Shown piece by piece: positions 20,889-32,877 of a DNA stretch of 43,182 bases. This DNA comes from Bacteroidales bacterium (GTDB lineage Bacteria > Bacteroidota > Bacteroidia > Bacteroidales > Prolixibacteraceae), in assembly GCA_015654795.1 (NCBI GenBank), contig JAATGF010000054.1, forward strand, positions 1-43,182. Direction: 5' to 3'. Below the pieces are notes generated by a model. That model was not told where the DNA came from and ran no database searches. It saw only the letters and a program-made list of their open reading frames with translations. Each line of letters opens with the position of its first letter. Position 1 is the first letter of the stretch. Made by a program: the position numbers and the translations under genes.

Positions 20889-21479
20889 GTGAAAAGACTA
20901 TTGCTTTTACCCATCCTGTTATTATCTTTAAGCGCATTTAGCCAGGAGAACTGGGAAACCACCTTTAAGGGCGGGATTAACTGTTCATTCCTGAGCAGCG
21001 GGGTTTCCTCATCGGGCAACAAAATCTATTTTGGCGCAACCGCAGGTTTGGAACAGACCTATTATTTCGATAATTCAATTTTCTCCGCACAATCGGGTCT
21101 CGAATACGAAAACATAGGGGCAGGACTCAATTCGATAAGTGTAACAGTGGGAGGCAGTAATCCGGGAATGGGTACTTTGTCGAGAGAAAATGCCAATTAT
21201 CTGACTGTTCCCTTGCACCTTAAATGTCAGATCAATGAGCGGTGGGGCGCACTTGCCGGGGCAGGTTACCGTTTTGGATTGGGAGACCGGCAATCGGGAA
21301 ATAGCAGAGCCAGTGATGATATTTCGCTCGACGCCGGATTCTTTTATAAGCTGGATAAGATGAGGTTTAACCTGATCTACCAGCATGGCCTGCAAGAAGC
21401 AGATCCAGGTTATCAGATGATTCAGTCCAAAAACCGCACAATTACATTTACAGTTTCCACCAGCCTATGGAAAAAGTAA
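20889..21479 (+). CDS. Outer-membrane beta-barrel protein
   Basis: A 196-residue exported protein starting at GTG. The signal peptide KRLLLLPILLLSLSAFSQ is cleaved after A-F-S-Q or close by. The mature part has alternating hydrophobic strands with aromatic ends and Gly-rich turns (FKGGINCSFLSSG, YFGATAGLEQTYYFD, WGALAGAGYRFGLGD, TITFTVSTSLW) as in the outer membrane protein beta-barrel (PF13568-like) family of about eight strands. It ends in the hydrophobic/aromatic C terminus SLWKK. Function is unknown; such proteins are usually structural or porin-like. Confidence 0.8.
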   Translation: MKRLLLLPILLLSLSAFSQENWETTFKGGINCSFLSSGVSSSGNKIYFGATAGLEQTYYFDNSIFSAQSGLEYENIGAGLNSISVTVGGSNPGMGTLSRENANYLTVPLHLKCQINERWGALAGAGYRFGLGDRQSGNSRASDDISLDAGFFYKLDKMRFNLIYQHGLQEADPGYQMIQSKNRTITFTVSTSLWKK

Positions 21480-21826
21480 ATATTGGGTTGGGTAAAGTTA
21501 AGATGTAAAAATTATAGCATTGATTTATGAATCTTAACAGCGGTAATTTTTGCATTTGAATAAAATAGGCTTGCCAAAAAAATATATACACGTTAAAAAC
21601 ATGAGGATATATAAACTAACGAACGTTCATTGTAAAAAGAGAAAACAGAGACAGAATGATGAATGAATTTTTGCTGCATAAAGACAGAAAAATGAAGGGC
21701 AACTGATCCTTCGCAAAATTACAAGATGTGCATACACACAGCGAATAGAGTGGTTGTCATTTTGGACTGATTTATTGATTACAATGGGAGCAAAAAATGT
21801 AACTTTACAACTTTAGAAAATTCATA
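21480..21826. other. Spacer carrying the restriction operon promoter
   Basis: About 350 AT-rich bases. A small palindrome GAACGTTC lies at 21621-21628 within TAACGAACGTTCATT, which resembles TetR-type sites but has no regulator next to it. TTG (21775-21777) and TAACTTTA (21800-21807), 22 bases apart, form the probable promoter of hsdR, with transcription starting close to its ATG. No gene is seen. Confidence 0.5.
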
Positions 21827-24361
21827 ATGTCAAAAGAAGCAAAATCAAGAATTAAAATAAACAAACTGCTGGAGGAAGCAGATTGGCGTTTCTTTGACGA
21901 TGAGAAAGGTACAGCCAATATTGTATTAGAAAATAACGTCAAACTTACCAAAACAGAACTTGATGAGTTTGGGGAAGATTTTGAAAAGACTTCAAATGGT
22001 TATATCGATTATCTTTTGCTTGACAACAAAGGATTTCCTTTTATTGTATTGGAGGCGAAGAAAGAAGAAATAAATCCACTTGCGGCAAAGGAACAAGCAC
22101 GTACATATGCACAATCGCAGAATTGCAGGTTTATCATTTTATCAAATGGGAATTTGCATTACTTCTGGGATTTGCAAAGAGGAAACCCAAATATTATTTC
22201 CAAATTCCCAAGACCTGAGATGGTTATTGGCTATACAGATTTTAAACCAAATTCAGAAACGCTTATTAATGAAATAGTTAATGATGATTACGTTGTAAGA
22301 ACCCAAAAGCATGATTACGAAAACGATCCAAGATATAATTACGAAGGACAACGCGACGCTTTTATTGAAGAACACAAACTCCGCTTTTTAAGAAAGTACC
22401 AGGTACGTGCTGTTGAAAGAATTCAGGAAGAAGTAAAGAATGGGAAAGACCGTTTTTTATTTGAAATGGCAACAGGTACCGGTAAAACTTTAACTGCGGC
22501 TGCTGTTATCAAACTGTTTTTGAGAACCGGAAATGCGAGGCGCGTTTTGTTTTTAGTTGACCGTTTGGAATTGGAAGATCAAGCGGATAAAGCATTTAAA
22601 CAGTATCTTAAAACTGATTACAAGTGCAGCATTTATAAAGAAAACAGGGATGATTGGCGACAAGCTGAGATTGTTGTTTCAACAGTACAGTCCTTTTTAT
22701 TCAAAAATAAATACAAACGTATTTTTCAACCTACTGATTTTGATCTTGTTATTTCAGACGAAGCACACCGAAGCATTGGCGGCAATAGCAGGGCGGTTTT
22801 TGAATATTTCATCGGTTACAAATTAGGACTAACTGCCACACCTAAAGACTATTTAAAGAAGTTTGACAAAGACGCTTTAAATGATAAGGACCCAAGAGAA
22901 CTCGAAAGAAGAATGTTGTTGGACACTTATATAACTTTCGGTTGTGAAGATGGCAAACCGACTTACCAATACAGTCTTTTGGATGGAGTCCGCGACGAAT
23001 ATTTAGTCAATCCCTGTGTGGTGGATGCAAGAACAGAAATTACAGCAGAACTGCTAAATGACGAAGGATATACGGTATTAATAACTGATGAAGACGGAGA
23101 AGAAACTTCTACTACATTTTCGCAACGGGATTATGAAAAGAAATTATTCTCAGAAAATACAAATCAAATATTTTGCAAGACATTTATAGACAATGCTTTT
23201 GTTGACCCAATTTCCGGTGAGATTGGCAAAACCATTGTTTTCTGTGTCAGCCAAAACCATGCAGCAAAGATAACTCAGATTCTCAATGAATTTGCCGACC
23301 AAAAGTTTCCCGGTAAATATCAATCGGACTTTGCAATGCAGGTAACTTCATGGATTCCAGATGCACAACAGTTGACGATTAATTTTACGAACAATCGATT
23401 AGGAGGGAAAGGTAATTTCTTTGATTTGTATCAAACAAGCAAAACAAGAGTTTGTGTTACAGTCGGAATGATGACAACGGGTTACGACTGTCCAGATTTG
23501 TTGAATGTATGTTTGATGAGGCCCATATATTCACCCACCGATTTTATTCAGATTAAGGGACGAGGAACAAGAAAATGCAATTTTGCAAATAAAGAAATAC
23601 TAAAAGACAAGACTCTAATTGAAGGCATTCAACCTGAAAAATTAAAGAAATCAAAATTCAAACTCTTTGATTTCTTTGCCAACTGCGAATTCTTTGAAGA
23701 GAAATTCAATTATGATGAGGTAATCAAGTTGCCACCCAAAGGTTCATCGATTAACTTTAAAAGAGGCGGAGAATACGTTACTTCCGGTGATTACGACAGC
23801 ATTTTATCAGACCCGTTGAAGTCAATGACAGTAAATGAGATTGGGCTTGAGGGAATGAAGATAGACCGAATGTATTTTGACAAATTTGAAGATAAGGTAA
23901 AAGAAGACAACAATATTCAGGAAATGGTTTTACAAAAGGATTTTGAAGCCATTGAGCAATACATCTATGACAACATTTTTGAAAAGCCGGAAGAGTATTA
24001 CAACATTAGCAAATTGAGAAACGCGGTAAAAATTGACCGCAGATTACAGCTACGTGAAATTATCGAAAAAATATTTGGTTTTATTCCATACTTCAAAAGT
24101 AAAGACGAATTACTTGAAGATGAGTTTGAAAAATTTGACAGCCGTTATTTGCCGACCGATGAATATTTTTCGTTTGCCAAAGACTATTTTAAAAGCTATA
24201 TCACTGACACAGAATTCAGGGATATTATTGAAAACAAAAAGTATGCATTATTAAACACCAATCCAAATGGTGATGTCTTCAGGAAATTGACACCCGAACT
24301 GCGCACGGCGATTCCAGAGTACATAAAAGATAATGTATCATTAAATAAATTTATAGCATAG
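21827..24361 (+). CDS. hsdR: Type I restriction enzyme, R subunit
   Basis: An 844-residue DNA translocase and endonuclease subunit. The N-terminal PD-(D/E)XK nuclease is visible as Asp61 (GYIDYLLLD) and Glu76-Ala-Lys78 (VLEAK). The superfamily 2 motor follows: Walker A MATGTGKT (214-221), DEAH box (ISDEAHRS, 311-314), LTATP, and the late motif GRGTRKC near 578. A helical C-terminal region (about 700-844) should dock onto the methylase. Length and motifs match the EcoEI-like (type IB) HsdR group. The gene starts the defence segment and its stop lies one base before the next ATG, so translation is coupled. Confidence 0.95.
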   Translation: MSKEAKSRIKINKLLEEADWRFFDDEKGTANIVLENNVKLTKTELDEFGEDFEKTSNGYIDYLLLDNKGFPFIVLEAKKEEINPLAAKEQARTYAQSQNCRFIILSNGNLHYFWDLQRGNPNIISKFPRPEMVIGYTDFKPNSETLINEIVNDDYVVRTQKHDYENDPRYNYEGQRDAFIEEHKLRFLRKYQVRAVERIQEEVKNGKDRFLFEMATGTGKTLTAAAVIKLFLRTGNARRVLFLVDRLELEDQADKAFKQYLKTDYKCSIYKENRDDWRQAEIVVSTVQSFLFKNKYKRIFQPTDFDLVISDEAHRSIGGNSRAVFEYFIGYKLGLTATPKDYLKKFDKDALNDKDPRELERRMLLDTYITFGCEDGKPTYQYSLLDGVRDEYLVNPCVVDARTEITAELLNDEGYTVLITDEDGEETSTTFSQRDYEKKLFSENTNQIFCKTFIDNAFVDPISGEIGKTIVFCVSQNHAAKITQILNEFADQKFPGKYQSDFAMQVTSWIPDAQQLTINFTNNRLGGKGNFFDLYQTSKTRVCVTVGMMTTGYDCPDLLNVCLMRPIYSPTDFIQIKGRGTRKCNFANKEILKDKTLIEGIQPEKLKKSKFKLFDFFANCEFFEEKFNYDEVIKLPPKGSSINFKRGGEYVTSGDYDSILSDPLKSMTVNEIGLEGMKIDRMYFDKFEDKVKEDNNIQEMVLQKDFEAIEQYIYDNIFEKPEEYYNISKLRNAVKIDRRLQLREIIEKIFGFIPYFKSKDELLEDEFEKFDSRYLPTDEYFSFAKDYFKSYITDTEFRDIIENKKYALLNTNPNGDVFRKLTPELRTAIPEYIKDNVSLNKFIA

Positions 24362-24362
24362 C

Positions 24363-26822
24363 ATGTTAGACCAGGAAACAAAAAGACGAATAGATACTGC
24401 ACGCGATATATTGGTAGGAAAACTACCAAACCCACAAAGTCAGGTTGAGCAAATTACCATTGCCATGATTTATAAGTTCATGGACGATATGGATAAAGAA
24501 GCGATGGAATTTGGGGGTGAAGCCACTTTTTTTACGGGCGATTACGAAAAATACAGTTGGTCGAAAATATTTGATCCCAAACTCGGAGGTTATGAAATGC
24601 TCGCTTTATATGGCGAAGCCATTGTAAAACTGAACCAAAACCCTAATATTCCGCAACTGTTCAGAGATATTTTCAAAAACGCTTATTTACCTTATCGCGA
24701 TCCAGAAACGCTAAAAATGTTCCTGAAAGTTATCAATGAATTTACCTATGAACACAGCGAAAAATTAGGCGATGCGTTTGAATATTTATTATCGGTTTTA
24801 GGCTCGCAAGGCGATGCAGGACAATTCCGTACACCGAGGCACATCATCGATTTTATGGTGGAAATTATACAACCTAAAAAAGAAGAAACTATTTGCGATC
24901 CTGCTTGCGGGACTGCAGGATTCCTGATTTCTTCCTACAAACATATTTTAAAAGAGAATGCCAAAAAGACAAAAGGAGATTTACTTACTCCAGTTGATCG
25001 GAAAAAACTAATCAACAACTTTGTGGGTTATGATATTTCCTCTGAAATGGTTCGCTTAAGTTTGGTAAACTTATACTTACACGGCTTTACTACGCCGAAG
25101 ATATTTGAATACGACACCCTTACCAGTGAAGAACGTTGGGGTGATTATTTTGATGTTATTTTAGCCAATCCCCCTTTTATGACACCAAAAGGTGGAATAC
25201 GTCCGCACAAAAAATTCACGATGCAAGCCAACCGCAGTGAAGTTCTTTTTGTGGATTATATTATGGAACACATAAACCCTACGACGGGAAGAGCAGGAGT
25301 TATTGTACCGGAAGGTATAATTTTCCAAAGCGCCACTGCCTACAAAGCATTACGTAAATTGTTGGTGACCAAAAAATATTTATATGGAGTAGTGAGTTTA
25401 CCTGCAGGTATATTTCAGCCGTATAGCGGTGTAAAAACTTCGATTTTACTCATTGATAAAACACTTGCAAAGAAAACCGATAAAATCCTTTTTGTCAAAA
25501 TAGAAAATGATGGTTTTGGATTAGGCGCTCAAAGAAAAGAATTGGCTACGAGTGATTTACCTGATGCAGCAAATTTAATTAAACAATACATTACGGCAAT
25601 TCGGAACGATGATTATTCAGCATTAGATTTTGACAACTTGCCATTGAATGCATTGGTTGTTGATAAAAGTCAAATTGCTGAAATTGACGATTATAATTTG
25701 TCAATAGATAAATATAGAGTAACTAAAGTAAGGCATAAAGGGAAGTTCGATTTTGTTGAGCTGTCAGATGTTACATTAATTAAAAGAGGTAACACAATAA
25801 CAAAAAAGGATTCAGTTGAAGGTGCAATTCCTGTAATTGCCGGAGGGCAGCAACCTGCATATTATCATAATGAGGCAAATCGAAAGGGGAATGTAATTAC
25901 GGTCAGTTCTTCTGGTGCTTATGCAGGATTTATTAATTTTTTTGAATATCCTATTTTCGCTTCTGACTGTTCAACCATTGAAACAAAAGACGAAAATGAA
26001 CTTAATATTAAATTTGTATATTATTTATTAAAGTCAAAGCAAGAAGACTTTTATAGATTTCAAGTTGGAGGAGGACAGCCTCACGTTTATGCAACACACT
26101 TTGCAAATTATAAAATACCACTTCCTCCATATTCAATTCAGCAAGAAATTATTGCAAGAATAGAGCACTTTGAAAAAATAATTTCCGGAGCTAAACAAGT
26201 AGTAGAAAATTACAAACCTCAAATTGACCTAAATTCAGAATGGGAATTGGTTGAATTGGGGAAAATTTGTGAGATAAATCCAAAGAAATCAGAATTAAAT
26301 GGTATTGACGAAAATACCTTAGTTTCCTTTGTTCCAATGGTTGATCTTAATGACAATTCTGAAAATTTCACTCCAAAAGAAGTAAGGAAATTGTCTGAGG
26401 TTTATTCTGGATATACTTATTTTAAAAATAATGATGTATTAGTCGCGAAAGTAACACCTTGTTTTGAAAATGGGAAAGCAGGTATTGCAAAAGATTTGGT
26501 AAATGGAATTGGTTTTGGTTCTAGTGAGTTTACCGTGTTAAGGAACTCCGATAAAGTTTTACCATATTGGATATACTTAAATGTTACTTCATTAAAATTT
26601 AGAGAACAAGGTAAATTGAGAATGACAGGAACCGGCGGATTACAAAGGGTTCCAAAAGATTTTGTTCTGAGTTATAATATTCCACTTCCTTCAATTAATG
26701 AACAAGAAGCCGTAGTGGAAAAAATAGAAAGGGAACAAGCGTTGGTAGATGGGAATAAAGAACTTATACAACTATTTGAGCAAAAGATAAAAGATGAGAT
26801 CAATAAACTTTGGGCTGAATAA
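24363..26822 (+). CDS. hsdM: Type I HsdM-HsdS fusion (adenine methylase plus specificity subunit)
   Basis: An 819-residue fusion. Residues 1 to about 455 are the N6-adenine methylase HsdM: helical N-terminal domain (IAMIYKFMDDMD), SAM-binding motif I DPACGTAGF (179-187), catalytic NPPF (269-272). From about 460 the protein becomes HsdS with two target-recognition domains (TRD1 about 460-600, TRD2 about 630-790), each followed by a conserved helix: SIQQEIIARIEHFEKII and INEQEAVVEKIEREQALVD. HsdM and HsdS are normally separate proteins. A complex with HsdR would need one or two copies of this chain instead of M2S. The next gene overlaps its stop by one base. Confidence 0.93.
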   Translation: MLDQETKRRIDTARDILVGKLPNPQSQVEQITIAMIYKFMDDMDKEAMEFGGEATFFTGDYEKYSWSKIFDPKLGGYEMLALYGEAIVKLNQNPNIPQLFRDIFKNAYLPYRDPETLKMFLKVINEFTYEHSEKLGDAFEYLLSVLGSQGDAGQFRTPRHIIDFMVEIIQPKKEETICDPACGTAGFLISSYKHILKENAKKTKGDLLTPVDRKKLINNFVGYDISSEMVRLSLVNLYLHGFTTPKIFEYDTLTSEERWGDYFDVILANPPFMTPKGGIRPHKKFTMQANRSEVLFVDYIMEHINPTTGRAGVIVPEGIIFQSATAYKALRKLLVTKKYLYGVVSLPAGIFQPYSGVKTSILLIDKTLAKKTDKILFVKIENDGFGLGAQRKELATSDLPDAANLIKQYITAIRNDDYSALDFDNLPLNALVVDKSQIAEIDDYNLSIDKYRVTKVRHKGKFDFVELSDVTLIKRGNTITKKDSVEGAIPVIAGGQQPAYYHNEANRKGNVITVSSSGAYAGFINFFEYPIFASDCSTIETKDENELNIKFVYYLLKSKQEDFYRFQVGGGQPHVYATHFANYKIPLPPYSIQQEIIARIEHFEKIISGAKQVVENYKPQIDLNSEWELVELGKICEINPKKSELNGIDENTLVSFVPMVDLNDNSENFTPKEVRKLSEVYSGYTYFKNNDVLVAKVTPCFENGKAGIAKDLVNGIGFGSSEFTVLRNSDKVLPYWIYLNVTSLKFREQGKLRMTGTGGLQRVPKDFVLSYNIPLPSINEQEAVVEKIEREQALVDGNKELIQLFEQKIKDEINKLWAE

Positions 26823-27568
26823 TGGCTAATACAAATGACATATTAACCTATTTGCCCAACTCTTACAAAACTAAGGACGAAGAGGATTATATTAATTTTC
26901 TTTGGGAGAGTTATGAGAGTAATTATAACAACGAGAAATATCCGTTTGCATTTATTGCAATTCATATGCTCTATATGTGTTTTGTCTATTTTGAAGTGTG
27001 GCAAATAAAGGAAAACAGAAAGACAGATTTTGAAAAGGCAATGATTGGGGTAAGCAAAGAATTTGAAAATAAATTTTTAGCAGCAACTACACCATTTGCT
27101 TTTGTGGAATTAGGCGAAAGTAATTTTATTCGTTTCTTAAAATTGATTGGTTGTGACAACTCTCAAATAGGCAACTATTGCCTAAGTGTTAAATCAAGAA
27201 ATGATGCAGCACATTCTAATGGCAGAATATTTTTTAACGACCGATCGATCATTGACAGTAAAGTAGATGAAATATTGCGCTTTATAGATGAAATTCAAAC
27301 ACATTCAAAACCAATCCTAACAGAATGTTTGATTAAATTCCTAAAAGAAAACCACAACCCTGACGACAGAGAATATATTGACGACACTGACCAAATCAGA
27401 GAAATACTGATACACGGTAATTATATGTCCCAAAAAGATATAGAATATTTGCTCACTTTTGATATTACACAATTAGTAGGAGATGTTAACTATTTAAAAA
27501 TAAGATGTTTGTTTGAAGCTTTTAAAGATAATTATTTACATGACCGTGGATACAATATTTTACAGTAA
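26822..27568 (+). CDS. HEPN-motif protein coupled to the restriction operon
   Basis: A 248-residue protein I cannot assign to a named family. Its ATG shares one base with the hsdMS stop (TAATG), which implies coupled translation. The sequence is helical and contains Arg126-Asn127-Asp-Ala-Ala-His131 (KSRNDAAHSNG), the R-N-x3-H form of the HEPN RNase active site used by many abortive-infection toxins and by Cas13. The following segment VDEILRFIDEIQTHSK fits the last HEPN helix. A C-terminal part of about 80 residues (from ILTECLIKFLKENHNPDD) is unassigned. A plausible role is an RNase that kills or stalls the cell when restriction fails, as PrrC does beside EcoprrI. Role is inferred. Confidence 0.75.
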   Translation: MANTNDILTYLPNSYKTKDEEDYINFLWESYESNYNNEKYPFAFIAIHMLYMCFVYFEVWQIKENRKTDFEKAMIGVSKEFENKFLAATTPFAFVELGESNFIRFLKLIGCDNSQIGNYCLSVKSRNDAAHSNGRIFFNDRSIIDSKVDEILRFIDEIQTHSKPILTECLIKFLKENHNPDDREYIDDTDQIREILIHGNYMSQKDIEYLLTFDITQLVGDVNYLKIRCLFEAFKDNYLHDRGYNILQ

Positions 27569-27635
27569 ATTATTGTGACGAATATTCAATTTTGAGTCGT
27601 CCCGTTTTGTGATCTATTAACAAGACCACTAAACT

Positions 27636-27659
27636 AAATCCGCTCATGCGGATTTTTTT
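27636..27659 (+). terminator. Intrinsic terminator of the restriction operon
   Basis: Perfect eight-pair stem AAATCCGC / GCGGATTT with loop TCAT, running straight into seven T (three of them in the stem). It lies 67 bases after the HEPN gene and separates it from the next nuclease gene. Confidence 0.8.
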
Positions 27660-27870
27660 ACTTTGCAATAAATTGATAACTAGGCAATAATCAAAATAAA
27701 AGCATCTTACGACGGATGAACAAACACAAAACAAACCGAATTTTTATTTGCAATAAAATTATTATAACTAAATTTGCTTTCAAGAAGAAATGTACGATAT
27801 AAGTTCTGTGTTACTGCAGAGATCATTATGATATTTTATAAAAAGTACTCAGTTGGTTATTAAGAGATAA

Positions 27871-29601
27871 ATGAAAGATGCAATTCTTGAACGGCAATTT
27901 TTTTTAGCATATAGCGATATATATGAGGATTTTGATTCTTTCAATATCAAAAGTATTTTAAGAAGTATACCAAAAATAACAGCTATTGAAAGGATTTCAT
28001 ACTTATTGTGTCAATTAAGTTTACCTGGGGAAACAACAAAGAAGACTCATGCATCTATTCTGCTGCAATGGGTATTACTATTAGCAAGTGAAGATAACAA
28101 GCGTGTTTCAAAAGTAATTCGGGAAAGAAGCCTTCATGAAGATCCAAAATTTCATTTTATAGATGCGACATCTTCTTTGATGCTCATTGAATACCTACTG
28201 GAAGATAATAACTTCATCGAAGATAAATTATCAGCAGAGCAGGAATCTGACCTATTCAAGGCTTATTTATGGTGCATTGAAACGTCGATAAGAAAGCAAC
28301 AAGCAGCATTTAATTGCGATGATAATGATAGTATTGATGATTTAGTACGCAAAATGCTTCCAGCAAAGTTAAGTTTCAGAGAAATTGATTCATTTAAAGA
28401 TTATCGAATCCAGTTTATTAAAACATTCTATTTTTTTAGTTTTTGTGAAACCGATGTTGAATATAAGGAGTACCTATTGCTTTTCTTGCGTGAATATAAT
28501 GTCGCTACTTGGGATAAATATCTACTCAATTTAATCACATTTTATCTTACGCTGTTGCAACAAGATATTCAATTAACGCCAAAGCTTTGTGCTCCGAATT
28601 TAAACAAGCAAACAGCTGACTTCCTTGATGCGTTCTGTTTGAATGAGCATAGAAATTATAAAAGATCTGATGATTTTACTGAGTTAAGAAATACGCCTAT
28701 TTACAAATATGAAAACTATTATTTGTTTCTATATTTCAATTTTTTTGTCGACAAAATTTATCAGGGATTTTTATTTGACTTTGCAAAAGTATTAAGTAAA
28801 AACAAATGTAGAATTAAGGATTTCGGAGATTTAAAATCAGATTTAGGTGAAAAATTTGCGGAGCACTTTGCCTTTTATAAGACAATTGACTTGTGCTTTA
28901 AGAATTATGCCGACATTCAGTTAAAAGGTGAAAATATTAAAATTATTTTAAAAGAAGGAGAACCTGATTTTTACATGAGACAAGGAAATAAGGTCTTCCT
29001 ATTCGAATTTAAAGATCCAACATTAAATAAAAAAACCAAACATTCGGGGGATTTTGAGGAAATAAAGAGATGTATTTTAGAAAAATTTGAAGAAACGTCA
29101 AGCGATAAAAAGAAAGGTATTAAACAATTAGTTAATACAATTAAACAAATCCAAAACTTACAGTATAATCGATCTGAATTAGATGAATTTATCCCTAACA
29201 AAATTGTTATTTATCCTATATTAGTACATACTGACTGTAGTTTTGAGGTAGAAGGAATAAATTATATTTTAAAAGAGAGGTTTAAGCAATTACTGATTGA
29301 GGGCAACATAAAGAACCATCATCAAATAAAGGATGTAGTACTAATTAATCTTGACACACTAATTTCGTTACAAGACCTTTTTCAGTCAAACAAATTGAAA
29401 ATAAGTACATGTATAAATGAATACCTAAATTATTCAAGCGATAATAAAAAAATTATTAATCGGATATATTCTTTTGATTACTACATAAGGTATTATGCAT
29501 TTAATAAAGGATTTAAGAACTTAGCCCCAATCGAATTTCGTAAAATAGTAGACGGTTTTGTTGAAAAGGAAAAGCAGATAAAACTGAAATCCATTTTATA
29601 A
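27871..29601 (+). CDS. Unrecognised 576-residue protein with PD-(D/E)XK nuclease core
   Basis: No named family recognised. The first ~300 residues are helical and rich in Leu, Phe and Tyr, without membrane segments. A nuclease core follows: Glu329 in a helix (GEKFAEHFAFYK), Asp366 (GEPDFYM) and Glu379-x-Lys381 (FLFEFKD), separated as in PD-(D/E)XK enzymes (beta hairpin D-x12-E-x-K). The region after it (391-576) is charged and includes IVIYPILVHTD, a strand typical of the fold's core. The gene is AT-rich like the restriction genes and has its own leader beyond a terminator, so it may be a separate defence gene with a helical sensor or oligomerisation part. Target (DNA or RNA) unknown. Confidence 0.72.
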   Translation: MKDAILERQFFLAYSDIYEDFDSFNIKSILRSIPKITAIERISYLLCQLSLPGETTKKTHASILLQWVLLLASEDNKRVSKVIRERSLHEDPKFHFIDATSSLMLIEYLLEDNNFIEDKLSAEQESDLFKAYLWCIETSIRKQQAAFNCDDNDSIDDLVRKMLPAKLSFREIDSFKDYRIQFIKTFYFFSFCETDVEYKEYLLLFLREYNVATWDKYLLNLITFYLTLLQQDIQLTPKLCAPNLNKQTADFLDAFCLNEHRNYKRSDDFTELRNTPIYKYENYYLFLYFNFFVDKIYQGFLFDFAKVLSKNKCRIKDFGDLKSDLGEKFAEHFAFYKTIDLCFKNYADIQLKGENIKIILKEGEPDFYMRQGNKVFLFEFKDPTLNKKTKHSGDFEEIKRCILEKFEETSSDKKKGIKQLVNTIKQIQNLQYNRSELDEFIPNKIVIYPILVHTDCSFEVEGINYILKERFKQLLIEGNIKNHHQIKDVVLINLDTLISLQDLFQSNKLKISTCINEYLNYSSDNKKIINRIYSFDYYIRYYAFNKGFKNLAPIEFRKIVDGFVEKEKQIKLKSIL

Positions 29602-29899
29602 ATAAAACAAGTCCACCACTAAAAATATTCATTCAGAAAAACTTCTGTTTTATTCATTATAAATTCAAGATAATGGTCCCCCCAAAGAAGAATTTAGACA
29701 TAGATTATTGTCCTTATTGATATTTATATATGCGCATATGCCTTATTAATAACCTATATACGTGTATAATATTCTGTCCTGCAAGGGATAATTATTACTC
29801 AGAAGTATCTTGAGAACTTTGTACAAAGTGTACTCTATAATAATTCCGAAATAAATTATATTTATGTATGTTATGGGATACAACAATATATTTACCCTT
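29602..29899. other. AT-rich spacer with several palindromes
   Basis: No gene. Palindromes: ATATGCGCATAT (29728-29739), TATAC-GT-GTATA (29757-29768) and ACTTTGTACAAAGT (29816-29829, perfect 14 bp). They could be operators or a recombination site at the edge of the defence segment; no integrase is present. TATATTTA (29887-29894) is a possible -7 box for the structured RNA that follows. Confidence 0.4.
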
Positions 29900-30135
29900 C
29901 AAAGTGGGGTGTTAAATATTCAAAATTGAATTTTTCTAAATAGCTGTAATTTAATTTGTTGTGATTAAGGTTTCAAGATATCTCAACAGCTCTAAATCTA
30001 CTAAAGAAGACAGTACTTAATCACTTGAATTTAAGTTTATCTAGGCAGTCCTGAATATTTAAAACTAGAACGAAGTTCTAAAAAGACATTTAACACCCCA
30101 CCCTCAAGGTTTCAAAAACCTTGAGGGTTTATTTT
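29900..30135 (+). ncRNA. Candidate structured non-coding RNA
   Basis: The segment is bounded by a 14-pair closing stem (29904-29917 with 30088-30101). Inside are a small hairpin ATTCA/TGAAT (29918-29931), pairing TAAATA/TATTTA (29937-29942 with 30056-30061) and CTG/CAG, a perfect nine-pair stem GTGATTAAG/CTTAATCAC (29961-29969 with 30016-30024), and a hairpin TAGAAC-GAA-GTTCTA (30066-30080). An intrinsic terminator follows directly, and TATATTTA (29887-29894) could be its -7 box. The long, bubbled hairpin of ~200 bases recalls 6S RNA, but I cannot confirm that. A miniature transposon with inverted ends is the main alternative. Pairings were found by eye, without covariation support. Confidence 0.4.
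30101..30135 (+). terminator. Intrinsic terminator after the RNA candidate
   Basis: Eleven-pair perfect stem CCCTCAAGGTT / AACCTTGAGGG (30101-30111 with 30117-30127), loop of five bases, then TTTATTTT. It shares one base with the closing stem of the RNA candidate. No plus-strand protein gene ends within 450 bases upstream, which argues for a non-coding transcript. Confidence 0.75.
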
Positions 30136-30166
30136 ACCATTTCGGCACTCATTCCGATTCCCATCC

Positions 30167-30247
30167 CATTTTATCTTTTTCATCAGCAACCCCATTTCCT
30201 CTTCAAAATACAAGTATCCGGACAGTAAATCTTGCAGTGGCTTCCCC
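30167..30247 (-). repeat. Decayed coding repeat, copy 1
   Basis: About 80 bases that recur at 31809-31890 with roughly four of five bases alike. On the minus strand both copies read KPLQDLLxGYxYFxEEMG; here it lies in a 74-codon frame (30112-30336) that looks like a remnant and runs into a terminator. The parent family is not recognised. Confidence 0.55.
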
Positions 30248-30476
30248 GGATACTTCTCGTTTGCAATCCCGAAAGTCGGGACCCCGTTTTTACAGGGAGG
30301 AGTTAGTTGTCCGTCGTTTGTAACGGTTATAATCACCTTACTTTAAAAAGGTTCTCGCATAAATTCATCCGGAATTGTAAATTTATACAAAATATTGATA
30401 TGTAAAGACTTTCAATCGCCGGTCACGAATCCCGCTCCATTTTGCCATACATTTCAATCCTAAATTCAACTGATTA

Positions 30477-30508
30477 TTTGCTGTTGATTTTTTTTAAACT
30501 TAACTTTG
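30477..30508 (+). promoter_or_regulatory. Strong consensus promoter, second copy of the module
   Basis: TTTG (30477-30480), 20 bases, TAACTTTG (30501-30508), the same spacing and very similar surrounding bases as at 19692-19723 (shared GATTATTTGC, T-run, TAACTTTGG). It lies about 130 bases before the flavin reductase-like gene. Confidence 0.6.
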
Positions 30509-30640
30509 GGAAACCGTTAAGTGATCAATATCGGATAAACAAATATTGAAAAAACCTGCAGCAGGCGGGAGAAGTACGAACTATGAATTAATCGACTCAG
30601 ATGAGAGGATTTGTTAAATGATAGACTAAAGAAATAAGGT

Positions 30641-31186
30641 ATGAAAGAATTTCCACTTTCAAAAGCATTTCAGTTTTTAGAACCAGGGCCAGTGGTTTTA
30701 GTAACAACGCTAAATAAGGGAAAGACCAATATCATGACTATGAGCTGGCACATGATTATGGATTTTACACCACAAATCGGTTGTATCATAGGCTCGTGGG
30801 ATTACAGCTATACGGCATTACGGGAGACAAGGGAGTGTGTTATATCAATTCCAACCGTTGACATTGCAAGTAAAGTAGTTGAGATAGGTAATTGTTCAGG
30901 TCGCGATACAAATAAATTTGAAATATTTGGATTGACGCCTCTAAAATCAGAAAAGATTAAAGCACCGCTAATCGCTGAATGTCTAGCCAATATTGAGTGT
31001 AAAGTATTAGATATTAGTTTGATAAACAAATATAGTCTTTTTATATTAGAAGGTGTCAAAGCATGGTACGATTATGAGCGTAAAGAAAAACGAACGTTTC
31101 ATGCAAATGGAGATGGCACTTTTGTTGTTGATGGAGAAACCCTAAATCTAAAAGACAAAATGGTTAAATGGACTGAATTCACTTAA
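30641..31186 (+). CDS. Flavin reductase-like FMN-binding protein
   Basis: A 181-residue protein with the split-barrel fold of the flavin reductase-like domain. PGPVVLVTTLNKGKTNIMTMSW at the start and CIIGSWDYSYTALRETRECVISIP are typical FMN-contacting segments; FEIFGLTPLKSEKIKAPLI matches the family's middle. Such proteins bind FMN and pass electrons from NAD(P)H or act in anaerobic detoxification. The ATG at 30641 fits the family. It has its own strong promoter and no operon partner; the next gene begins 165 bases later. Confidence 0.88.
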   Translation: MKEFPLSKAFQFLEPGPVVLVTTLNKGKTNIMTMSWHMIMDFTPQIGCIIGSWDYSYTALRETRECVISIPTVDIASKVVEIGNCSGRDTNKFEIFGLTPLKSEKIKAPLIAECLANIECKVLDISLINKYSLFILEGVKAWYDYERKEKRTFHANGDGTFVVDGETLNLKDKMVKWTEFT

Positions 31187-31351
31187 AACAAGATAGATAC
31201 CGTAAATTCCAAATGATACGATTATGAAAACGATATTTCCAGTTTAAGTATGTTTGAAAACAAGAAATTATTCCGTTCTGTACCATGCTGAAAGCAACTA
31301 ATTTCCCGGTTATTGCATCTATTATAGCGATAGCTTATAAAATTAATCAAC

Positions 31352-31765
31352 GTGAAAACCATAATCTTAATAGTCTGCTTAATTGGTATCATAAGTTGTG
31401 AAAAAGAAACTGATGAACAGGTAATTGTATCAACCGGTGTTACTGGAAATATAAAATATGGTATCGGTGATTGCATGCCAATGATTGATGAAAATCGCAG
31501 AATTTACAATAATTACAATGGCGATTTACATTTTATTAAAAAATCAGACTGGGATAATCAGGTTAACGGGGATTTTGAGCAGTTAAAAGCAAAGAGTATA
31601 AAAACAGCTGTTAAAAATGGCAAATTAGCCATTGAATTACCACCCGATACATTTTTGATCATTCCGTCGGATGTGTACTTATATTCTGATTATAATACAG
31701 TTATAATTAAAGAAGGAATCGTATTGGAGAAGACTTTGAATTTTTGGAAATGCACTTCCTATTGA
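31352..31765 (+). CDS. Small lipoprotein of unknown function
   Basis: A 137-residue exported lipoprotein starting at GTG. KTIILIVCLIGIISC is a lipoprotein signal with the lipobox I-I-S-C (Cys16), followed by acidic residues, so it is probably carried to the outer membrane. The mature part has a GDCMPMIDENRR motif and beta-like segments but no domain I recognise. A later Cys (WKCTS at the C terminus) could pair with the Cys in GDCMP. It stands between the two copies of a decayed repeat. Confidence 0.75.
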   Translation: MKTIILIVCLIGIISCEKETDEQVIVSTGVTGNIKYGIGDCMPMIDENRRIYNNYNGDLHFIKKSDWDNQVNGDFEQLKAKSIKTAVKNGKLAIELPPDTFLIIPSDVYLYSDYNTVIIKEGIVLEKTLNFWKCTSY

Positions 31766-31808
31766 CAGGGAAAGATGATTAGACGTTAATCGGCTAAAGT
31801 AATAATCG

Positions 31809-31890
31809 CATTTCATCTTTTTCATCAGCAGCCCCCATTTCCTCGCCAAAATAAAAATACCCGAACAATAAATCTTGCAGGGGTTTCCTC
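31809..31890 (-). repeat. Decayed coding repeat, copy 2
   Basis: Second copy of the sequence at 30167-30247, same orientation, with a one-base shift after EEMG that breaks the reading frame. The two copies flank the flavin reductase-like and lipoprotein genes, so that segment of about 1.6 kb may have been inserted or the repeat duplicated with it. Confidence 0.55.
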
Positions 31891-31906
31891 CGTGCCATAT
31901 CCATAT

Positions 31907-32005
31907 CTTATGTGCATTTTGTGTGTACTTCCTGTACAGTTTATGTATAGTTTGTGTGCTGATTTAGCACAGATAGTGCACAGATAGTGCACAGATGGTG
32001 CACAG
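31907..32005. repeat. 11 bp tandem repeat, nine units
   Basis: Nine consecutive 11-base units, degenerate at the left (CTTATGTGCAT, TTTGTGTGTAC, TTCCTGTACAG, TTTATGTATAG) and more regular at the right (ATAGTGCACAG twice, then ATGGTGCACAG). The period is close to one DNA turn, so equal bases would face the same side of the helix. It lies between a decayed repeat and REP-like elements. A minus-strand frame crosses it but is not credible as a gene. Confidence 0.7.
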
Positions 32006-32877
32006 AAAGACAGACCATGATACCTATAAAACTCTGCCATGTTAGCCCGACTAATTTTAGAAAAAAGATGTTTGATAAAAACGATTAGGCCGTTTGAAAA
32101 TTTCACGTAGGGAAATGGCTTGGTAAAACGGCTGTAACTTATCATTGGCAGGGGCTGGAAAAGGTGAAAATGAAAACCACAAAGATCACAATATACTTGA
32201 TTATTGGTGTCCGGGTAAAATTTAATTGATTCTTGTAATATGAACATTATTAAGTTTTTACTAAGATACCACCACTCGTATGTGGCTTACTTCTACAATT
32301 CTGTTTATTTCTACAAAGACGATCCCGCACATGTGGGACTACGCCGTATCCCTTTTTAGAACGTAGTTGCTATATCTTTGTAGATAAGTGCATTATAGGA
32401 TCAAAAGAACAATCCCGTAAATACGGGACGACATTTTAATTTGTTAATATTCGAACCGGACAACAGTGATTCTTATTTTACTATATTTTAACCTTGTGTT
32501 CCTTGTGTAAACTTAGCGACCTTTGTGGTAGAAATAATATCTTTGAACCATATGGATGATGATTGAAAATTTATTCTGCCGGCATCCGGTTTCTTACGGA
32601 GCCATTAAATAAAACGAAATAAATATCTGGAAGTTTGTTATGAAGATAAAAATACGATTTCAGGAAAAAGGATCGTCATCAAAAAACCACGTTATCGTTA
32701 CCTGCAACAGGCGCGGAATAACAGGCTAATCCTGAAACTTTAAGCATAATCAATGCCCCACTATTACTTTTGAGTGAAGACTTAACATTTTTTAATTAAA
32801 TCATACCTCTTAACACAATTCAAAACACTATTTTCGTAACCGTTTTTAAAGCACAATAATTAATTATCTATTGGATT
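32006..32877. other. Gene-free spacer with REP-like elements
   Basis: No credible gene in about 870 bases before the Bat operon. REP-like elements: TTTCTACAAAGACG plus CCCGCA-CA-TGTGGG (about 32308-32339), ATCCCGTAAATACGGGAC (about 32412-32429) and a lone TTTGTAGA near 32388. CTTTGTGGTAGAAA near 32523 is another related piece. The last 100 bases are AT-rich and should hold the moxR promoter, but no clear TAnnTTTG is visible. Confidence 0.5.

Follow-up and report, generated by a model that had tools for sequence, protein, structure and literature searches.

A compact Upx-like PD-(D/E)XK nuclease family of Bacteroidota with a likely role in single-gene defence

A reading frame of 576 codons stands beside a type I restriction operon in the DNA analysed here, a stretch of 43,182 nucleotides from a Bacteroidales bacterium of the Prolixibacteraceae (contig JAATGF010000054.1; hereafter the window). 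Does this gene serve the neighboring restriction system, or is it a defence gene in its own right? An earlier reading of the letters alone (the sequence-only reading) had proposed an unrecognised PD-(D/E)XK protein with a helical part of ~300 residues, possibly a separate single-gene defence system. We assign a probability of roughly 0.7 to the gene encoding a horizontally acquired, stand-alone nuclease directed against phages or mobile elements. The single-gene defence reading is supported by the stand-alone gene, its invariant core, a context of defence and mobile genes, a patchy distribution and a whole-length structural match to one half of the defence protein Upx. The locus comprises the following features.

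21480-32719, no strand: accessory island with hsdR, hsdMS, a gene for a 248-residue protein and the nuclease gene; in a genome of the same genus this site holds ~285 bp
21827-27568, + strand: type I restriction operon with hsdR, fused hsdM-hsdS and the 248-residue HEPN-like gene; a neighbor rather than a component of the system
27636-27655, + strand: intrinsic terminator between the upstream restriction operon and the nuclease gene
27747-27776, + strand: candidate Bacteroidota-type promoter TTTG-N18-TAAATTTG, a weak pattern match
27871-29601, + strand: gene of the 576-residue compact Upx-like PD-(D/E)XK nuclease, with an open frame, 61 full-length homologues and a confident model

The nuclease gene begins with ATG, and an open frame of this length has a chance probability of ~2e-23 at the local composition; the frame is real and not a product of chance. 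The island of 11.2 kb is bordered by a conserved gene (20889-21479) on one side and the moxR operon on the other; at this place the same-genus genome G737 (locus L170) has ~285 bp instead. Protein identity between the genes flanking the island and those of the same-genus genome is 79% and 98%. The base composition had been said to match that of the restriction genes, which holds for low GC as such, but the nuclease gene is lower still (29.1% versus 35.5% in hsdR and 34.9% in hsdMS), with 43-45% in the adjacent core operon. The position beyond a terminator was borne out by a fold z of -5.3, with none of 200 shuffles equally stable. A leader of its own, also suggested earlier, is plausible from the intergenic gap of 302 bp and the promoter match, but the promoter pattern is common by chance, with 5 occurrences in the window against 2.2 expected from shuffles, which often yield it.

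The gene could belong to the type I operon as an accessory subunit; it adjoins these genes on the same strand and has low GC in common with them. This is very improbable, given that the terminator and 302 bp intervene, that only 3 of 86 loci have a homologue of the HsdR or HsdM of the window within 10 kb, and that most homologues have other neighbors. The subunit role was rejected on these neighborhoods.

The C-terminal part of the protein is a PD-(D/E)XK nuclease, whose E331/D366/E379/K381/Q419 centre is invariant. Its elements map as follows, with conservation counted among 61 full-length homologues.

28831-29349, + strand: PD-(D/E)XK core, residues 321-493, with helix, strands, helix and strand in canonical order (Nt.BspD6I Z 11.6, FokI Z 8.6)
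28861-28863, + strand: E331, the motif-I glutamate (not residue 329), within helix 321-343; 61/61
28966-28968, + strand: D366, the PD-motif aspartate that binds metal; 61/61
29005-29016, + strand: E379-x-K381-D382, the (D/E)XK motif at the end of strand 374-381; E379, K381 and D382 each 61/61
29125-29127, + strand: Q419, opening the helix that follows the core strands; 61/61

These homologues share only 20-26% identity with the query, and their invariant positions are D268, P276, E331, D366, E379, K381, D382 and Q419. The earlier assignment of Asp366 and Glu379-x-Lys381 to the nuclease core was correct. Glu329 was misplaced, as position 329 is a phenylalanine and the conserved motif-I glutamate is E331; the other glutamate near motif I, E327, is not conserved. 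Homologues lacking the D...E-x-K residues, which the sequence-only reading had named as evidence against itself, were not found among the 61. The AlphaFold2 model contains the complete alpha-beta-beta-beta-alpha-beta core (helix 321-343, strands 349-352, 367-371 and 374-381, helix 417-428, strand 446-453). E331 sits in the first nuclease helix, the second strand starts after D366, the third ends with E379-x-K381, and Q419 lies in the second helix. Both marks of the PD-(D/E)XK superfamily, a catalytic triad kept in homologues and the core fold, are thus present.

In VIA-align, the nuclease domain is nearest in fold to the cleavage domains of the type IIS enzymes Nt.BspD6I (Z 11.6), R.BspD6I2 (9.7) and FokI (8.6), which are likewise multidomain chains with a C-terminal nuclease. 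This similarity, together with restriction-modification genes near the gene in the window and among some homologue neighbors, favors a solitary restriction endonuclease of type IIS or type IV character. Such an enzyme would depend on modification or sequence, recognize DNA through its helical half and be constitutively active rather than triggered by infection. We regard this as unlikely. No cognate methyltransferase accompanies the gene, no neighbor is constant, and the helical half matches Upx rather than a DNA-recognition domain. The recognition domains of the type IIS enzymes are unmatched by the helical half, and identity is 7-11%. No DNA-recognition domain occurs among the chains that the helical half matched, though absence from that list rules out no such domain. 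The restriction and defence readings are not cleanly separable, because the depositors of the Upx cryo-EM entry 9wuf label the protein 'Restriction endonuclease'. Antiviral PD-(D/E)XK effectors of related fold include Shedu SduA, LmuA of Lamassu, HamA of Hachiman and Can2/Card1-like nucleases (Z ~5-7). They differ in other regulatory domains or partner proteins, lower Z and the lack of a sequence match.

For the defence nuclease proposed here, structure prediction and fold searches of both halves, as the earlier reading had suggested, recovered the nuclease fold and gave the helical half a likely structural relative.

27871-28800, + strand: helical N-terminal module and beta-hairpin, residues 1-310, with invariant D268 and P276 and the fold of Upx 735-1113

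The full-length AlphaFold2 model is confident (pLDDT 86.5, pTM 0.89) and bears out the helical part of ~300 residues. Residues 1 to ~240 are all-helical, and a conserved beta-hairpin with D268 and P276 joins this module to the nuclease. The helical part had been described as impossible to assign, which still applies to sequence libraries, where it has no match, but no longer to structure. The best whole-length Foldseek match in the PDB was 9wuf (E 1.2e-3, probability 1.00, 572 columns), and VIA-align placed model residues 11-495 onto Upx 735-1267 with Z 10.1 over 364 residues. Modelled separately (pLDDT 86.9), the helical half aligned with Upx 735-1113 at Z 10.9 over 243 of 310 residues, and the next-best chain reached Z 2.7. 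The nuclease of the model continues colinearly after this match. Because helical models can score high Z by chance, weight is placed on the gap to the next chain, on coverage and on the colinear nuclease. The rmsd of the structural match is 5.8-9.5 A for a predicted model, and Foldseek with the helical half alone gave a weak result (E 4.6). A fold search of BFVD gave no match at E<=0.001.

Upx is a known single-gene anti-phage protein of ~1270 aa, for which PMC10855318 cites Gao et al. (2020, Science) as the source. It is represented in PADLOC by PDLC02221 (1271 positions), and six Bacteroidota homologues were collected for comparison, one of which matches 9wuf at E 6e-25. The compact family has the domain order of Upx, whose C-terminal helical module is followed by a PD-(D/E)XK nuclease, and the predicted fold of the 576-residue protein matches Upx 735-1267. 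Both carry an E-x-K-D motif (ECKD/ECKN in Upx), and motif spacing is similar, with E331-35-D366-13-E379 here and ~36 and 15 in the Bacteroidota Upx homologues. In contrast, Upx is ~1270 aa long against 576 here (homologues ~551-610 aa, partial genes aside). The first ~730 Upx residues are missing, including the N-terminal SecC-like motif of most Bacteroidota Upx homologues, and GDIDV...IECKN in Upx stands against PDYY...FESKD here. No significant sequence or profile similarity joins the two. The PADLOC Upx profile matched none of the 61 family members at E<=0.1. Profile-profile comparison (hhalign) of the family with the six Upx homologues, whole and as halves, was not significant (P 0.2-0.6), and the motif segments vFLFEsKD and iiYLIECKN align without significance. 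We name the family Upx-like rather than Upx, because it is without the first ~730 Upx residues and no sequence test joins them. In its predicted fold and in the order of its domains the protein corresponds to the C-terminal half of Upx; the family is built like this half in its models and probably works like it. In the Upx homologues L141 and L148, an N-terminal Upx stretch (profile 216-264) aligns weakly and not significantly with the hairpin region of the family (246-292). These alignments raise the possibility that Upx contains two related segments.

The family was previously unnamed. Sequence searches of Pfam, PADLOC, NCBIfam, PHROGs and the PDB with the single protein gave no meaningful match, as the description of the protein as unrecognised had implied, and profile or per-member library searches with the 61 homologues gave isolated chance-level matches only. 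A confident match to a housekeeping family, which would have spoken against the earlier reading, was not among them. None of 60 relatives of the host, 17 of them of the same genus, carries the nuclease gene. A housekeeping role was rejected on its absence from the 17 same-genus genomes. Of 395 sampled Bacteroidota genomes, 14 carry a homologue (~3.5%, the query's own counted), as do eight Hymenobacter plasmids. PADLOC and the general libraries miss the family entirely despite this frequency. Upx is much rarer in the same draw of genomes (1/395). A first scan of a genome collection with the single protein found nothing; an alignment-based scan of the species-wide collection returned 96 relatives, of which 80 were kept. 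The kept records are all from Bacteroidota except one Limnohabitans metagenome bin, which is maybe misassigned. The family is found essentially only in Bacteroidota, in a scan that used peptide patterns of Bacteroidota members and could miss members elsewhere. Two IMG/VR contigs carry homologues, and phage records yielded none.

Gene neighborhoods point towards defence. Counting homologues beside defence genes, a check already proposed, revealed flanks strongly enriched in anti-phage genes. The immediate flanks of 42 non-redundant loci (84 ORFs) matched 105 PADLOC families at E<=1e-8, versus 15 for 80 ORFs flanking randomly placed genes of carrier genomes; PADLOC families are redundant, and these figures are a comparison and not a gene count. 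Taken one by one, at least 8 of these 42 loci adjoin a known defence gene (Tmn, SoFic, AbiEii, LmuA, type I methyltransferase or type IIG). The confirmed immediate neighbors include Tmn and SoFic (L050), SoFic (L083), AbiEii (L068), type IIG with PDC-S18 (L110), a type I methylase (L099) and LmuA (L064, L075 and L100). L114 adjoins a PDC-S01 candidate, and PDC-S01 is present in the control too. Some flanking genes are ordinary or belong to conjugation. No constant partner gene was found across loci, and strand and gap to neighbors vary. A defence role drawn from neighborhoods is guilt by association.

Members of the family reside on plasmids as well as on integrated or conjugative elements. 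In 40 of 86 loci, a tra gene or a gene for an integrase, a resolvase or a coupling protein lies within 10 kb. On the Hymenobacter plasmids the gene sits in an accessory slot close to tra genes, in which AbiEii/DUF6088, HigB, DUF4238, MmeI or Piwi genes are likewise present. Such proximity to conjugation or integration genes, as well as a ParB gene beside one lineage, could indicate a host-directed toxin or a nuclease for plasmid or transfer maintenance, with no role against phages. This is quite improbable: the type of mobile element varies, no transfer gene is constant, the enriched families are anti-phage ones, and no constant antitoxin-like partner accompanies the gene. An identical protein was observed in records of Aquimarina, Zeaxanthinibacter and Maribacter (L056, L057 and L059). 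The Aquimarina and Zeaxanthinibacter records are 99.98% identical over 13.9 kb around the gene, with ParB and ssb-like genes alongside, which reflects either recent cross-genus transfer or a mixed-up record.

The gene most likely encodes a defence nuclease that forms a single-gene system and is gated by the helical half of the protein, and we infer its activity and trigger as follows. Before infection, the helical module would keep the nuclease off or dock it. An infection product, be it a phage protein, a DNA structure or a modification, would act as the trigger, and the nuclease would then cut phage DNA and possibly host DNA. DNA is the expected substrate because of the type IIS-like nuclease fold and the relation to Upx. 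The single protein would act without a partner protein. The larger Upx would have an extra N-terminal half with which the compact family dispenses. More tentatively, and at somewhat less than even odds, the helical module and nuclease might be a minimal sensing-and-cutting unit common to Upx. The family would then be an unrecognised immune system of one gene, widespread in Bacteroidota: a helical fold of ~300 residues, otherwise unseen, would sense infection directly and switch the nuclease on, and Upx would be this unit plus a second module. The literature searched contained no paper on the mechanism of Upx and nothing on comparable single-gene nuclease defences. Should the protein prove to be a compact Upx, its half size would help in working out which signal the helical module senses and what restrains the nuclease. 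It would also add one more single-gene system to the defences of a phylum important in gut, soil and sea.

The island holds further features of its own. In the restriction operon, HsdM and HsdS are fused in one ORF of 819 aa (24363-26822), and the adjoining HsdR is short (844 aa). The start of the gene for the 248-residue protein (26822-27568) overlaps the hsdMS stop, and its product carries an RNDAAH (R-x4-H) HEPN-like motif with a sub-threshold RiboL-PSP-HEPN match (E 0.26). This protein could serve the type I system as a back-up RNase. Downstream of the nuclease gene, an inverted repeat (29896-30128) has 22-nt arms 170 nt apart, the right arm entering a strong terminator hairpin. It may be what is left of a small element, or else an RNA gene; an Rfam search over the island gave no match. 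Two degenerate direct copies (30163-30245 and 31805-31888, 84-90%) lie ~1.64 kb apart and flank a flavin reductase gene.
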